Positions 26,399 through 30,962 of a stretch of DNA of 64,000 nt are shown piece after piece; the stretch's first letter is position 1; each line of letters begins with the position of its first letter. The translations under genes were made by a program, and so were the position numbers. The DNA is from Magnetospirillum sp. Lineage in GTDB: Bacteria; Pseudomonadota; Alphaproteobacteria; CACIAM-22H2. Under the pieces are notes generated by a model. That model made no database searches. It was not told where the DNA came from and saw only the letters and a program-made list of their open reading frames with translations. The stretch covers positions 1 through 64,000 of the forward strand of contig JAPZUA010000007.1 in the NCBI GenBank assembly GCA_027532905.1. The letters are read 5' to 3'.

Positions 26399-27130
26399 TC
26401 AATCGCGCTCGCGCTCGCCGCGCCTCTCGCGCCCCTCTTCGCGCGTCTGATGGCCGCCGCGATGGCAGGCAACGCAATTGTCGATAGTGGCGATGCGTTC
26501 GCGGCGATGTTTGGCGAGGATCGCGGCGGGTTGATGTTCGTGGCAGCCATAGCAAGTGTAGGACGAAGTCACGTTGCCGACGTGGCACGTCGCACACGGC
26601 GCATTGTGGTCGCCCTTGAGCGGAAAGAAGCGCGCATGGTCGAACGTCGCGGGCTTCCAATGGGTCTGCACATGGCATTGCGCGCACGCAGTCCCGGCGC
26701 TGCGATGGAAATCGCCCGCCGGTGCGGTGTGGCAACTCGCACAATTGGCGGACGTGCCCTGGTTCAACAGCGCATGCACGAACGTGAACTGCGCGACCGG
26801 GGCGAGGCGCGGCACGGCATGTTCGCTGTGGCAGCCCATGCAATCGGGGGAAGCGAGCGCTTGATGGAAGGGCGGCGTGCGCTGCGTCTGGGCAATCGGC
26901 AAGCCTTTGACGGTGCGCAAGCCGATCGTCGCCACCGCATGGCAGCCGATGCATTTGTCGGCGGCACTGCCGTGCCACGGCACGTGGCACGCAAAACAAT
27001 CCTCCGCGAGCGCCACATGGCCTTGGCCGAGTGCCCCTGGACTCAGCATCTGGCGCGGCAAGGCGACCGCCAGCACCGCAAGAGCGGCGACGTTCACGAC
27101 GATCAAGGCCAGCACCCAGTGTCGCTTCAT
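26399..27130 (-). CDS. Membrane-anchored octahaem c-type cytochrome
   Basis: A 243-residue multihaem cytochrome. An N-terminal hydrophobic helix (VLALIVVNVAALAVLAVALP, about 5-24) acts as signal or anchor. Eight CXXCH haem sites follow in order: CFACH, CIGCH, CMGCH, CASCH, CAQCH, CATCH, CYGCH and CVACH. Extra histidines between them (for example FHQAL, FVHAL, DHARF) can serve as second ligands. The C-terminal tail is strongly charged (REEGRERRGERERD). The spacing resembles class III/cytochrome c7-type chains. ATG overlaps the stop of the membrane cytochrome gene (27127-27130), so it probably accepts electrons from that protein on the periplasmic side. The final acceptor is unknown. Confidence 0.9.
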   Translation of the reverse strand: MKRHWVLALIVVNVAALAVLAVALPRQMLSPGALGQGHVALAEDCFACHVPWHGSAADKCIGCHAVATIGLRTVKGLPIAQTQRTPPFHQALASPDCMGCHSEHAVPRLAPVAQFTFVHALLNQGTSANCASCHTAPAGDFHRSAGTACAQCHVQTHWKPATFDHARFFPLKGDHNAPCATCHVGNVTSSYTCYGCHEHQPAAILAKHRRERIATIDNCVACHRGGHQTREEGRERRGERERD

Positions 27131-27702
27131 CGCCAGCCCCAGAAAACGAAGACGGCACCGATATGCCCGGCCGCGAGCAGCGCGAAGGCAAGCGTGATCG
27201 GGTAGTGCACGGCGCGCCATTGGCGCACCATGTCGAACGTGAACGCATCCCAATGGAGCTGCGCTTCGCGCTCGGCCGCAGACAAGCCCAGCGCATCGAG
27301 GCGCCCGATCGTGGCCTCGAGACGCGCGCGCGCGCGGCGCAGCAGATACTTGCCGGTAAGGCCGCTCGCGATATTCACCAGCATCGCCGCCACCGCAAGC
27401 CAGGCGAGGATCGCATCGAAATGGATGCCGGCATGGACGAGGATCAGCCACGATCCTGCCCATGCCATCCATTCGTGCATGCGCAGCAGCCGCACGGGCG
27501 CGCCCGCGACGAGGCCGCGCTTGACCAGCGAATAGCCGAACGAGCCCAAAATAAGCAGCGTGCCCAAGATCCCGAGATAGCGCCCGACCCAGACGGCATC
27601 GGCCAGATGCAACGCCGCATCGGCCAGCAACGCCGCCGCGACGAGGGCCGCAAACGCGCCGAAAAACGGCACGACCTCGTGGCGCAAAAGATCGAAACGC
27701 AT
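27127..27702 (-). CDS. Membrane haem-b-like protein of the octahaem module
   Basis: A 191-residue integral membrane protein with about five hydrophobic helices. Histidines sit in membrane-facing positions: RMHEWMAWAGSWLILVHAGIHF (three within about 20 residues) and AVHYPITLAFALLAAGHIGAVF. This arrangement fits a bis-histidine haem-b protein of the ferric-reductase/cytochrome b561 kind. It is encoded between the flavo-iron-sulfur reductase (stop 3 bases upstream of its ATG) and the octahaem cytochrome, so it likely carries electrons across the membrane. I cannot assign a named family with certainty. Confidence 0.78.
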   Translation of the reverse strand: MRFDLLRHEVVPFFGAFAALVAAALLADAALHLADAVWVGRYLGILGTLLILGSFGYSLVKRGLVAGAPVRLLRMHEWMAWAGSWLILVHAGIHFDAILAWLAVAAMLVNIASGLTGKYLLRRARARLEATIGRLDALGLSAAEREAQLHWDAFTFDMVRQWRAVHYPITLAFALLAAGHIGAVFVFWGWR

Positions 27703-27705
27703 CGC

Positions 27706-28944
27706 CTAGCCCTCGAGCCGCAGGTCGGACAGCGGCACTGCGACGCACGGCAAGCACATGCCCACCGCCACGGCATGGTCGGGTGTGCGCGCATAGGCGA
27801 CGGTCCCCGACACGAGCCGCGTCGCACACGCCCCGCAAGCACCCGTCCGGCAGCCGGACCCGAGGGCAACACCGTGCCGGTCGGCAAAATCGAGCAGATT
27901 GGCGTCGCGCCCGTCCCACGCGATCGTGCGCGCGGCGATGCTGAACCGCACCTCGAACGAAACGGACGCGCGAGCGGCAACCGGCACGGCAACGCCGCGT
28001 GCGGACGGCCCGAACGATTCGGTGCGGATGTCGTCTTTGTCGACACCCCAGTCGCGCAAGGCCGGCACGAGGCTCGCCATCATGCCGGGCGGCCCGCAAA
28101 CATAAAAACGATGGCGGCCGGCCGGCAATGTCGCGCGCAGCAGCGTTATGTCGATGAAACCAGCATGGTCGAAATCAACGCCGATCTTATCGGCCGCGCG
28201 CGGTGCGGCATAGGCAACGGTCTGGCGGAACGATTTATGTGCGGCCGCCAATGCGCCGAGCCGGTCTTTGAACGCATGGTCGGCAGCGTTCGCTACACCG
28301 TAATAGAGATGCAGCGCACGCGGCGGCGACGGCACTGCTAGTGCGGCTTCGATCATGCTCATCATCGGCGCAATGCCGATGCCGCCCGCAACGAACACGC
28401 TGCGCAATGCTGCATCAGGATCGAGCGTGAACAGCCCGGCTGGCGCTTTGACGTCGAGCGTGTCGCCGATGCCGATCCGGTCGAGAAGCAGCGCCGAGGC
28501 GAGCCCGGGCGGCAGGTTGGGATTGCCCGGCGGCCGAGCGGCGCGTTTGACCGTTATGCGAAAACCGGCGGCCGAAGGGGCTGCCGAGATCGAATAGCAA
28601 CGCAGCAGCGTGCGCACGGAATCGTTGGCGGCTGCACCTGCAAGCTTTAAGGCAAGAGTCAGATACTGGCCCGGTGCGAACGGCGCCAACACCGCACCAT
28701 CGACCGGCTTGAGATTGAACGAACATTGCGATCGCGCTGGGTCTTCGAAAACGCGATCGGCCACACGAAATTCGCGCAAGCCCGCCCAGGCGCCGTGTGA
28801 TTCGAAGCGGGCGGCAACGCCATCAGCTAGCGGTTCTGTCGCGAGAGATTTCGAACCTGGCCGCCGCAGGCCGACGCCGATGCCAATGCCGAGCTGCAGC
28901 AGCAAGGCCGCAAGAATGCAGGCAAGCAGCAAGCTCGTGCTCAT
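27706..28944 (-). CDS. Membrane-anchored FAD/2Fe-2S oxidoreductase
   Basis: A 412-residue flavoprotein. After a membrane helix (about 4-26), an FNR-type FAD domain carries RCYSISAAPS near residue 115. A pyridine-nucleotide fold follows (VFVAGGIGIAPMMSMIEAAL, then FYVCGPPGMMASLV). The C-terminal plant-type 2Fe-2S domain has C365, C370 and C373 (GSGCRTGACGACATRL) and a last cysteine near 397-400. It resembles phenol-hydroxylase or Vor/Hmp-type reductases. It probably oxidises NAD(P)H and passes electrons to the membrane haem protein encoded next. It is the first gene of the three-gene module. Confidence 0.9.
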   Translation of the reverse strand: MSTSLLLACILAALLLQLGIGIGVGLRRPGSKSLATEPLADGVAARFESHGAWAGLREFRVADRVFEDPARSQCSFNLKPVDGAVLAPFAPGQYLTLALKLAGAAANDSVRTLLRCYSISAAPSAAGFRITVKRAARPPGNPNLPPGLASALLLDRIGIGDTLDVKAPAGLFTLDPDAALRSVFVAGGIGIAPMMSMIEAALAVPSPPRALHLYYGVANAADHAFKDRLGALAAAHKSFRQTVAYAAPRAADKIGVDFDHAGFIDITLLRATLPAGRHRFYVCGPPGMMASLVPALRDWGVDKDDIRTESFGPSARGVAVPVAARASVSFEVRFSIAARTIAWDGRDANLLDFADRHGVALGSGCRTGACGACATRLVSGTVAYARTPDHAVAVGMCLPCVAVPLSDLRLEG

Positions 28945-28988: not shown

Positions 28989-29243
28989 TTAGCGGCGCAA
29001 CGACAAGGATTCTAGCGACGCGGCATCCGCCTCGTATTCGCGCGCGAGCAGATCGAACTCATTGGCAAGCCCAGGCGACGTCGCCTGTGCTGCAAGGTCG
29101 GCGCAGCGTGCCGCACGCGCGCGCAACCGCGTGACGGTCGCGTTGCGACCGGACGCCGCCTCGCGCGCATCGCTGCCGCTCGACAAGGCTTGGCGTTCGA
29201 ACTGGGCGGGGCCGAGTTGTGCGCTGCGATCGGGGTCAGTCAT
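28989..29243 (-). CDS. Small helical protein of unknown function (84 aa)
   Basis: I do not recognise a family. The 84-residue protein (MTDPDRSAQLGPAQFERQ) is alanine- and arginine-rich. Its second half looks like one long amphipathic helix (RLRARAARCADLAAQA, then EFDLLAREYEADAASLESL). An excellent ribosome-binding site (GGAGG) lies 6 bases before ATG at 29243, which decides against the longer frame starting at 29402. The next gene on this strand starts 45 bases downstream of it. It might be a small regulator or stress protein, but nothing shows which. Confidence 0.65.
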   Translation of the reverse strand: MTDPDRSAQLGPAQFERQALSSGSDAREAASGRNATVTRLRARAARCADLAAQATSPGLANEFDLLAREYEADAASLESLSLRR

Positions 29244-29470: not shown

Positions 29471-30103
29471 ATGGCTGCCAATGCCGTCTACATCGTCGAG
29501 GACGATCGGGACGTCTGCACGATGCTGCACGCCGTGTTGGCCGACGAAGGCTTGACGGTCGAGGAATTCGACAGCGGCGAGGCCTTTGTCGCAGCCCATC
29601 CGTCCGGCGCGTTCGGGTGCCTCGTGGTCGATGCGGGGCTGCCCGGCATGAGCGGGCTTGAGCTTGTGCAGCGCCTGCGCGCCGGCGACTACCATCTCGC
29701 GGCGATCATGCTCACGGGCCAAGCCAATGTGCCGATGGCGGTCGAAGCGATGAAGGCCGGGGCCGTCGACTTCATGCAGAAGCCGGTTTCATGCAAGCAT
29801 TTCGTCGCGACCGTACGCGCCGCCCTCGATGGGTTGCCGGCGCGCGAAGAGGCGCGCGGCCATTGCATCGACGCGGTGCGCAAGCTCAAAGGCCTTACGG
29901 CGCGCCAGAAGCAGGTGCTCGACATGATCGTGGCCGGTGTCGCGAACAAAAACATCGCAGCCGATCTCGGCATCAGCCAGCGCACGGTCGAAAACCACCG
30001 CGCCGCGATCATGCGCAAATCGGCGTCGAAATCGCTGCCGGCCCTCGTCCGCCTCGTCGAATGGGCGAACCGCAGCTTTGAAGCGCAAGCACCCAAGCGC
30101 TAA
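29471..30103 (+). CDS. FixJ/NarL-type response regulator, orphan
   Basis: A 210-residue two-domain transcription regulator. The receiver has the acidic pocket (VEDDRDV), the phospho-acceptor aspartate in CLVVDAGLPGMSG, the conserved Thr in IMLTGQAN and the Lys in FMQKPVS, matching the FixJ/TodT receiver type. A LuxR-type helix-turn-helix follows (LTARQKQVLDMIVAGVANKNIAADLGISQRTVENHRAAIMRK). No sensor kinase gene lies nearby, so its partner is unknown. ATG at 29471 follows a modest CGGAG site. Its stop overlaps the end of the convergent DUF6644-like gene by 4 bases. Confidence 0.93.
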   Translation: MAANAVYIVEDDRDVCTMLHAVLADEGLTVEEFDSGEAFVAAHPSGAFGCLVVDAGLPGMSGLELVQRLRAGDYHLAAIMLTGQANVPMAVEAMKAGAVDFMQKPVSCKHFVATVRAALDGLPAREEARGHCIDAVRKLKGLTARQKQVLDMIVAGVANKNIAADLGISQRTVENHRAAIMRKSASKSLPALVRLVEWANRSFEAQAPKR

Positions 30104-30537
30104 TAATACGCCGTAAAGATGCCGCCCGCGACGACGCCGAGCCAGGCGACCAGCGAGGCTACGGCGTTGAGACGCCCCGATGCCGCCGCAAGCCGGTGGA
30201 ATGCGACCGCGTTCCATAGCGCAAAAACCAATGCGCCCATTTTGAAAAGAAAGGCGGGGTTGCGCGCATAGTGCGCAGCCCCGGTCGAAAACATCGCCAA
30301 GCCCGCGACGAGCGCAAGTGCGGCCCCCGTCAGCGCCACCGGCAATGCAAAGCGCAGCACGGCTGCGCGATCGAGGGCCGATCCAAACCCGAGCAGGCGC
30401 AGATCCATCAGCACGACCGCCCCCACGGCGAGCGATGCGCCCACCGCGTGCAAGGTCGCGACGATCGGATAGGCCCATGTCGAGGCGCGCAAAGTTTGCG
30501 CAAACCCCGAGCCCTGCAGGGCGAGCAGCCAATCCAC
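30100..30537 (-). CDS. DUF6644-like membrane protein
   Basis: A protein of about 145 residues with four hydrophobic helices. The first contains YPIVATLHAVGASLAVGAVVLMDLRLLG; later segments include VALTGAALALVAGLAMFSTGAAHYARNPAFLFKMGALVFALWN. The pattern matches small haem-b-like or DUF6644 membrane proteins. No ATG is available near the right place; GTG at 30537 (VDWLLALQGSG) leaves a 29-base gap after the upstream DUF6152-like gene, with which it forms a pair. The function is unknown. Confidence 0.7.
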   Translation of the reverse strand: MDWLLALQGSGFAQTLRASTWAYPIVATLHAVGASLAVGAVVLMDLRLLGFGSALDRAAVLRFALPVALTGAALALVAGLAMFSTGAAHYARNPAFLFKMGALVFALWNAVAFHRLAAASGRLNAVASLVAWLGVVAGGIFTAYY

Positions 30538-30566
30538 GCCGACGCCGCCGCGCGCGCGTTCGCCGC

Positions 30567-30962
30567 TTAGCGCAGCTCGGTCGTCTTGCCCGCCACCACG
30601 ATGCGCTCGGCGCGCATCAGCCGCGCCGTCTGGCGGTGCGGATAGCCCTCGACCGTCGCGTCGGTGCCAAGGGCCAGCATCTCGCGCGACAGGCCGCGCG
30701 CCACCATGCGCGAGGGCGGTGCAAGCTCGATCGACCATTCGCCGCCGGCCTTGGTGAGGCGCAACTCGCCGTGCGGATTGTCGAAGGTCATGGCCGCAAT
30801 GCGTCCGTTGAGGCGCAGAACCTGGCCGCTGTCGAAGCCCGACCAGCCATGATGCGCTTGGGCCGCTTTTGCCCCGACGAGGCTTGCGGCTGCCAAGGCA
30901 AGGGCCGAACGGCGCGACAGGGAACGGGCAATAGTTTTACGTTCTGACATGCGCATTTTCAC
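30567..30962 (-). CDS. Secreted DUF6152-like protein
   Basis: A 131-residue exported protein. The N-terminus has a signal peptide with a twin-arginine-like patch (SRRSALALAAASLVGAKAAQA), and the mature part starts HHGWSGFDSGQVLRLNGRI, the hallmark of DUF6152. The domain is a small OB-like fold, often found beside DUF6644 membrane proteins as here. Several starts are possible: GTG at 30962, ATG at 30956 or ATG at 30950. The product may bind metal through the N-terminal histidines, but this is inference. Confidence 0.8.
   Translation of the reverse strand: MKMRMSERKTIARSLSRRSALALAAASLVGAKAAQAHHGWSGFDSGQVLRLNGRIAAMTFDNPHGELRLTKAGGEWSIELAPPSRMVARGLSREMLALGTDATVEGYPHRQTARLMRAERIVVAGKTTELR

Follow-up and report, generated by a model that had tools for sequence, protein, structure and literature searches.

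A three-gene module of Magnetospirillum sp. encoding a candidate NAD(P)H:multihaem-cytochrome oxidoreductase

Introduction

In the part of their paper concerned with the PCC3 and PCC4 clusters, He et al. (2017; PMC5566968) describe membrane proteins of five helices in which helix 4 carries SGXXG and helices 3 and 5 each carry WX3HX13H. A comparison with ferric reductase/NOX and cytochrome b is drawn there, and the proteins are suggested to act as a quinone-active cytochrome b. The same part of the paper reports that iron oxidisers also hold related, mostly porin-less clusters in which a multihaem cytochrome is accompanied by a smaller membrane protein with HX13H and, in most cases, by 'another redox protein', whose identity is not stated in section 18. 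Here we describe a three-gene module on the minus strand (28944-26399) of the window, that is, the whole 64,000-nucleotide stretch of contig JAPZUA010000007.1 of Magnetospirillum sp. that was analysed, which encodes, in this order, the reductase P0003, the membrane protein P0002 and the octahaem cytochrome P0001. We propose with moderate confidence that the three proteins constitute an inner-membrane NAD(P)H:multihaem-cytochrome oxidoreductase exporting electrons to the periplasm.

The module resembles the porin-less clusters. Its multihaem cytochrome c carries an N-terminal hydrophobic helix and eight CXXCH motifs and matched only general Pfam models, the adjacent gene encodes a short five-helix membrane protein (191 amino acids, aa) with HX13H on helices 3 and 5, and the other redox protein is here a flavin adenine dinucleotide (FAD)/NAD/2Fe-2S reductase. 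The membrane-protein gene of the porin-less clusters often lies directly downstream of the cytochrome gene, whereas here it lies directly upstream; since He et al. say 'often', the reversed order was not taken as defining. Compared by description of features, the module thus appears to belong to an already noted, uncharacterised kind. In a search of the open-access literature, no title or abstract dealt with this three-gene unit; the closest description is that in PMC5566968. An earlier reading of this DNA from sequence alone had stated that none of the three proteins matched a nameable complex, which holds for sequence searches of Pfam, NCBIfam and the PDB, though the porin-less clusters, as described in that part of PMC5566968, are a precedent for the arrangement itself.

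With PCC3/PCC4 the module shares a five-helix membrane protein whose helix 4 bears SGXXG and whose helices 3 and 5 each bear HX13H. The WX3HX13H motif is complete on helix 5 of P0002 (W162, H166, H180), whereas helix 3 has HX13H only, residue 72 being leucine. PCC3 differs in its membrane protein of about 300 aa, compared with 191 here, where there is one cytochrome with eight haem motifs. The PCC4-like cluster L134 (L and G numbers denote our loci and genomes) holds homologues of the reductase and of the b protein together with a decahaem protein. No porin was recognised by eye beside the module, and a genome search, which covered the MtrB/PioB family, gave no match. The module is probably a porin-less relative of PCC4-type clusters.

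Two further systems are comparable in working. SpNOX, a bacterial NOX, uses histidines of helices 3 and 5 to bind its haems, H69/H129 the inner one and H82/H142 the outer one, according to the relevant part of PMC11031084. Ferric reductase/NOX proteins (SpNOX, csNOX5, MsrQ) share with the module, as predicted here, an FNR-class NAD(P)H-FAD reductase feeding two b haems and the histidine pairs on helices 3 and 5. They differ in having six helices instead of the five predicted in P0002 by hydropathy; here, moreover, the reductase stands apart as a protein that has an anchor of its own and a 2Fe-2S domain in addition, and a multihaem cytochrome c follows. CbcL of Geobacter is described, in the part of PMC12307469 that deals with it, as a bc-type complex oxidising carriers of the menaquinone pool. 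Compared by that description only, it shares inner-membrane, bc-type electron delivery to periplasmic multihaem carriers, but draws on menaquinone, with no flavin reductase mentioned in that part.

Predicted cofactors of the three proteins

P0002 alone had no match in Pfam, NCBIfam or the PDB. Its hydropathy plot has five peaks (residues 13-31, 37-60, 82-100, 97-115 and 169-187), the HX13H pairs are H76/H90 on helix 3 and H166/H180 on helix 5, and SGLTG occupies residues 113-117 on helix 4. H32, H76, H90, H94, H166, H180, S113, G114 and G117 (SGXXG) were invariant in 27/27 rows of the core alignment. In a 20-row alignment including remote cousins of 21-27% identity, the only invariant histidines were H76, H90, H166 and H180 (20/20), bearing out the earlier description of a membrane protein with paired histidines. 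The 20 rows, P0002 included, were picked by hand among the homologues; L025 and L032 (E 6e-5 and 2e-4) were omitted as doubtful and others as near-duplicates. The loops richest in positive charge are 59-76 (four K/R, no acidic residue) and 117-165 (nine K/R, six D/E), and by the positive-inside rule we infer that H76 and H166 face the cytosol and that H90 and H180 are nearer the periplasm. The pattern of invariant histidines appears to match two b haems with two histidine ligands each, an arrangement known from the dihaem domains of ferric reductase/NOX and of cytochrome b, and P0002 is probably a two-haem cytochrome b. In a Pfam scan of the 20 rows, members of the wider family touched the models for cytochrome b561 (6/20, best 3e-7), DUF4405 (8/20, best 9.1e-5) and ferric reductase (2/20, best 0.0079), and P0002 itself matched neither PF01794 nor cytochrome b561 nor DUF4405.

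P0003 matched PF00175 (1.9e-18), PF00111 (3.7e-9) and PF00970 (2.2e-4), and hydropathy indicated an N-terminal hydrophobic helix followed by arginines, so that what follows the helix is expected on the cytosolic side; the earlier prediction of a flavo/2Fe-2S reductase with a membrane anchor thus agrees with both analyses. RCYS, GGxGxxP, CGPP and the cysteines C365, C370, C373, C397 and C400 were invariant in 5/5 aligned rows (P0003 included), and we take these motifs and conserved cysteines to be cofactor-binding and cluster motifs. The FAD/NAD(P)H domains were most like those of flavohaemoglobin (Hmp) in both NCBIfam (206 bits) and the PDB, where the nearest solved structure by sequence was flavohaemoglobin 3ozu (8.8e-42). 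P0003 differs from Hmp, however, in that its 206 bits fall below the family cut-off of 432, in that no globin match was found, and in having a membrane anchor and a 2Fe-2S domain.

All 16 cysteines of P0001 are used in its eight CXXCH motifs, in agreement with the earlier count of eight, whereas in 20,000 shuffled versions of the protein the motif occurred 0.09 times on average and never more than 3 times. In Pfam, P0001 matched Cytochrom_CIII (1.4e-8) and Cytochrom_c3_2 (1.7e-7), only general c3/c7/doubled-CXXCH models lying above the cut-off. Its profile matched a 16-haem cytochrome in the PDB (1.1e-7), with weak, partial matches to ammonia-forming nitrite reductases, MtrC and c3-type cytochromes, and no family of catalytic octahaem enzymes (HAO, ONR, OTR) was among its Pfam, NCBIfam or PDB matches. 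In 19/19 aligned rows (P0001 included), the eight CXXCH motifs were accompanied by nine other invariant histidines (H38, H89, H104, H119, H142, H165, H175, H199 and H208). A second histidine is therefore available for each of the eight haems and no free catalytic site is apparent, suggesting, from the count of candidate second ligands, that P0001 is a wire and not a catalyst. Furthermore, the number of haem motifs varied across 23 core loci, with 8 in 15 loci, 10 in seven and 12 in one, the extra units arising by repeat insertion; such variation, from 8 to 12 in core loci and to at least 24 in cousins, is as expected of a wire. The genome encodes cytochrome c assembly proteins. A genome search with Cytochrom_c3_2 gave no other match at E 0.01, a search so insensitive that the P0001 gene itself was recovered only below the cut-off.

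Proposed electron route

Considering the invariant cofactor motifs of P0003 and the HX13H pairs of P0002, laid out as in SpNOX, we propose the following scenario. P0003, held at the membrane by its N-terminal helix, would oxidise NAD(P)H in the cytosol and pass single electrons via FAD, together with the 2Fe-2S cluster, to that haem of P0002 which lies on the cytosolic side (H76/H166). From there each electron would hop to the haem on the periplasmic side (H90/H180) and then to P0001, the octahaem cytochrome tethered to the membrane. P0001, as a bis-histidine wire, may finally give electrons to a soluble periplasmic acceptor or relay that is not encoded in the module. NAD(P)H is favoured as the donor because an FNR-2Fe-2S reductase recurs beside homologous arrangements of b protein and multihaem cytochrome c. 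The sequences show the genes, their cofactor motifs, the invariant candidate ligands and the co-conservation, the haem content, the membrane topology, the assembly of a complex, the direction of flow and the donor being inferences.

This is the route from NAD(P)H through flavin/2Fe-2S and two b haems to a periplasmic multihaem wire that the sequence-only reading had suggested, and it fits the cofactor motifs, the predicted topology and the co-conservation of the genes. The terminal acceptors it had allowed, namely metals, nitrogen oxides or extracellular acceptors, are narrowed in that catalysis by the octahaem cytochrome itself is unlikely and no MtrB/PioB exit was found. A search with MtrB_PioB gave no match in the genome and, in 14 control genomes, one match, below the cut-off; this makes an extracellular route less likely. 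HX13H/multihaem clusters occur in the class of the window and in other classes of its phylum, and no tested function was found for them in the literature examined.

Conservation and cousin clusters

Within the genus, 4/11 genomes (including that of the window) held P0002, and all four keep the three genes in order; three of the genomes without P0002 are more than 90% complete. In a sample of the phylum, P0002 matches were found in 31/398 genomes. We examined 29 loci beside P0002 matches in other genomes, 23 of them core and six remote, the second core place of G564 (C13) not being among them. The homologue of P0002 and a multihaem cytochrome were adjacent in 23/23 core loci. Of these loci, 10 have an intact reductase gene (partly masked in one case), one has it divided between two frames, four keep no more than its anchor, and in one it lies off the contig. 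The sequence-only reading had named a lack of joint conservation as grounds for refutation; this was not observed for the b and c genes, which stay together throughout, and an intact or split reductase joins them in 11/23. Judged from these loci, the b-c pair is the core of the module and the reductase its more variable part. In G020 and G034, at 49-66% identity, the genes stand in the same order (reductase-b-c) and, in a further family, all three genes stood in order in 4/4 core loci; four remote loci of that family had the b protein and a cytochrome of at least 13 motifs, with no reductase within about 1.5 kb. In the six remote loci examined with the core loci, the cytochrome was adjacent in 6/6 and a homologous FNR-2Fe-2S reductase was present in 4/6.

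The anchor-only loci belong to G434, G488, G460 and G492 (L063, L065, L067 and L073), with frames of 44, 44, 48 and 105 aa that end at, or a few bases from, the start of the P0002 homologue; in L073, the anchor is joined to a stretch resembling the end of a 2Fe-2S domain. No RxYS-type flavin motif was present in any frame of these four stretches or of seven others lacking a reductase. The anchor helix thus seems to have been retained where the flavin domains were lost, as expected of a structural part and as if the helix alone were worth keeping.

Reductase copies elsewhere in the genomes lacking one beside the b-c pair were considered as relocated partners, which was disfavoured by a 35-row tree and by their neighbours. 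The G423 copy belongs to a PCC4-like cluster having b and c proteins of its own, that in G417 groups with the G423 copy, and that in G460 falls in the same large clade. The weak matches L088-L092 were left out of the tree, and the L022 row fills only 10% of the kept columns, so that its place is unsure. The copies in G434 and G488, which by eye have no initial hydrophobic helix, are the only possible relocated partners, unproven as such.

The ratio of non-synonymous to synonymous substitution rates (dN/dS) against the two closest relatives (L003, L004) was 0.09-0.11 for the cytochrome, 0.10-0.14 for the membrane protein and 0.21-0.22 for the reductase, and by this measure all three genes are under purifying selection. 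Against two remoter relatives (L021, L022), it was 0.23-0.67, with synonymous sites partly saturated. No P0002 relative was found on plasmids, where the search gave 12 records with distant P0003 relatives of 31-35% identity; on viral contigs, none of 79 pattern matches was confirmed as a relative.

Four types of cousin cluster contain the same b protein family. Type (a) has a reductase with a Met-rich N-terminal extension and a cytochrome of 6-7 motifs (L078-L080). Type (b) (L029, L030, L033) has a pyridine-nucleotide reductase with cNMP and 4Fe-4S domains (tested with Pfam in L030), a P0002 cousin of 276 aa and a 10-motif cytochrome, the N-terminal part of which looked FHA-like by eye, although Pfam, applied to one of these cytochromes, showed no FHA domain. 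A table in PMC10734462 names a 10-haem forkhead-associated protein. Type (c) has cytochromes of at least 24 motifs (L026, L131, L132), and type (d), the PCC4-like L134, has cytochromes of 5, 3 and 10 motifs with a reductase homologous to P0003 and a cNMP/4Fe-4S protein. The P0003-type reductase is thus the partner in two of the four types, and these two (4/6 remote loci; L134) also hold the homologous b protein and multihaem cytochrome c. It is tentatively possible that the HX13H/multihaem family as a whole, PCC4 included, is NAD(P)H-fed, reductive and quinone-independent and does not serve quinone-linked iron oxidation; it would then be a split NOX-like enzyme with an extendable wire, in some lineages of which the reductase has been cut to a translationally coupled anchor helix and a soluble or other donor has taken over.

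Among further features of the cousins, an RND efflux pump (PF00873) near L078 hints at metal stress. PCC3-like giant cytochromes stand beside a long P0002 cousin in L131 (8365-13277) and L132 (2844-7744), in frames of 24+38 and 24+34 CXXCH motifs, respectively. A link to nitrogenase, raised by a PF00148 gene downstream in L074, was dropped because no such gene was recognised by eye in the other stretches read.

Alternative explanations

Several results weigh against NAD(P)H-driven export by a NOX-like b protein. The P0002 profile matched the NOX5 membrane domain (5o0t) only weakly in the PDB, at E 0.081, below an unrelated-looking histidine kinase at 0.043, and an AlphaFold model from four sequences was of low confidence (pLDDT 66, pTM 0.39). 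In hhalign, the 20-row profile scored 18.9 against a ferric-reductase set and 27.0 against a b561 set, column-shuffled controls (30 each) reaching at most 8.5, but the probabilities were 7.5% and 42%; the 27-row core profile scored 20.7 and 9.1, with probabilities of 11.8% and 0.4%. The two reference sets aligned with each other at a score of 24.0 and a probability of 25%. Ferric-reductase row L149 and b561 rows L171 and L173 had been dropped from these sets, the frame picked not being a membrane protein, and L137 and L145 gave no usable frame. Considering the weak hhalign probabilities and the weak NOX5 match, a likeness in working is therefore claimed for P0002 and not membership of a family: in its working, P0002 may correspond to the membrane half of a ferric reductase/NOX or else to that of a cytochrome b. 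Strict conservation of three genes is contradicted by L005, where P0002 borders the end of a contig and the 8 kb upstream contain no reductase, and by L024, where a decayed fragment of the P0002 gene (6822-7700) has no P0001 or P0003 match nearby. No reductase was seen in 7/23 core loci, beyond the four that keep the anchor only, and in such lineages the b-c pair can be fed by something else.

The last point leads to the nearest rival, in which P0002 and P0001 form a bc-type quinol dehydrogenase with a role like that of CbcL, quinol-fed, the flavin reductase being an auxiliary or alternative feed. The seven loci include all four of a 188-aa branch (L053-L056), whose genomes hold only weak reductase matches elsewhere (three at 1e-11 to 1e-14, one with none at 1e-10). 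Furthermore, H32 and H94 of the core family, periplasmic by the predicted topology, could serve a quinol site, and both the quinone activity proposed for the PCC3/PCC4 membrane proteins and the menaquinone oxidation by CbcL, in the parts of PMC5566968 and PMC12307469 cited above, point the same way. A reductase of the same family nevertheless recurs beside three homologous b-c arrangements, and four loci keep its anchor as a remnant. No quinone-site motif was identified, no test for one having been made, and quinol supply to this module is judged unlikely. The compact three-gene form offers a tractable test of NAD(P)H versus quinol supply and of the direction of flow. Inward flow would have the octahaem cytochrome collect electrons from a periplasmic or extracellular donor such as Fe(II), with quinone or NAD(P)+ as the acceptor served by the module. 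It would follow the models drawn for PCC3/PCC4 in iron oxidisers, where, in the same part of PMC5566968, an extracellular donor feeds the quinone pool. Against it, the genome has no MtrB/PioB match, no porin was recognised by eye beside the genes, and reduction of NAD(P)+ would demand a donor of very low potential. Moreover, where FNR-type reductases serve oxygenases or NOX, electrons flow away from NAD(P)H. Inward flow is accordingly regarded as quite improbable. Export from NAD(P)H, in turn, would be compatible with a use in metal or oxidant stress, the electrons keeping periplasmic metal ions, proteins or peroxidases reduced. The efflux pump near L078, a sister cluster with the Met-rich-extension reductase, and a catalase-peroxidase and an iron transporter flanking the module in L021, recognised by eye only, are consistent with such a use, but the neighbours of the core module vary from genome to genome, and those in the window are pyruvate dehydrogenase and haem-uptake genes, recognised by eye, and a response regulator found with Pfam, leaving this use rather doubtful.

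Gene layout and neighbourhood

The coordinates of the module are given in Table 1; the place and order of the three genes and the two junctions, as read on the minus strand, are those of the sequence-only reading.

Table 1. Genes and junctions of the module in the window
Feature	Position	Strand	Description
Reductase P0003	27706..28944	minus	412 aa; anchor at about residues 6-24; predicted FAD, NAD(P)H and C-terminal 2Fe-2S domains
3-base gap, P0003 stop to P0002 start	27703..27705	minus	Read from sequence
Membrane protein P0002	27127..27702	minus	191 aa; five predicted helices; probable two-haem cytochrome b
ATGA 4-base overlap, P0002 stop/P0001 start	27127..27130	minus	Read from sequence
Octahaem cytochrome c P0001	26399..27130	minus	243 aa; N-terminal signal/anchor helix at about residues 6-24; eight CXXCH; charged C-terminal tail

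The ATGA overlap suggests translational coupling of P0002 and P0001. An 84-aa ATG frame lies on the minus strand at 28989-29243, 44 bases upstream of the P0003 start, with a similar frame in the same place in L003; in close relatives the unit may include it as a fourth gene. The plus strand encodes at 29471-30103, divergent from the module, a response regulator that has receiver and LuxR-type domains by Pfam and that we take to be 'FixJ-like'. No sensor kinase was noticed next to this regulator, which could control the module. On the minus strand at 30100-30962, a gene for a DUF6152 protein overlaps that of a membrane protein which matches DUF2214 weakly, and frames similar to this pair adjoin the module in L003.

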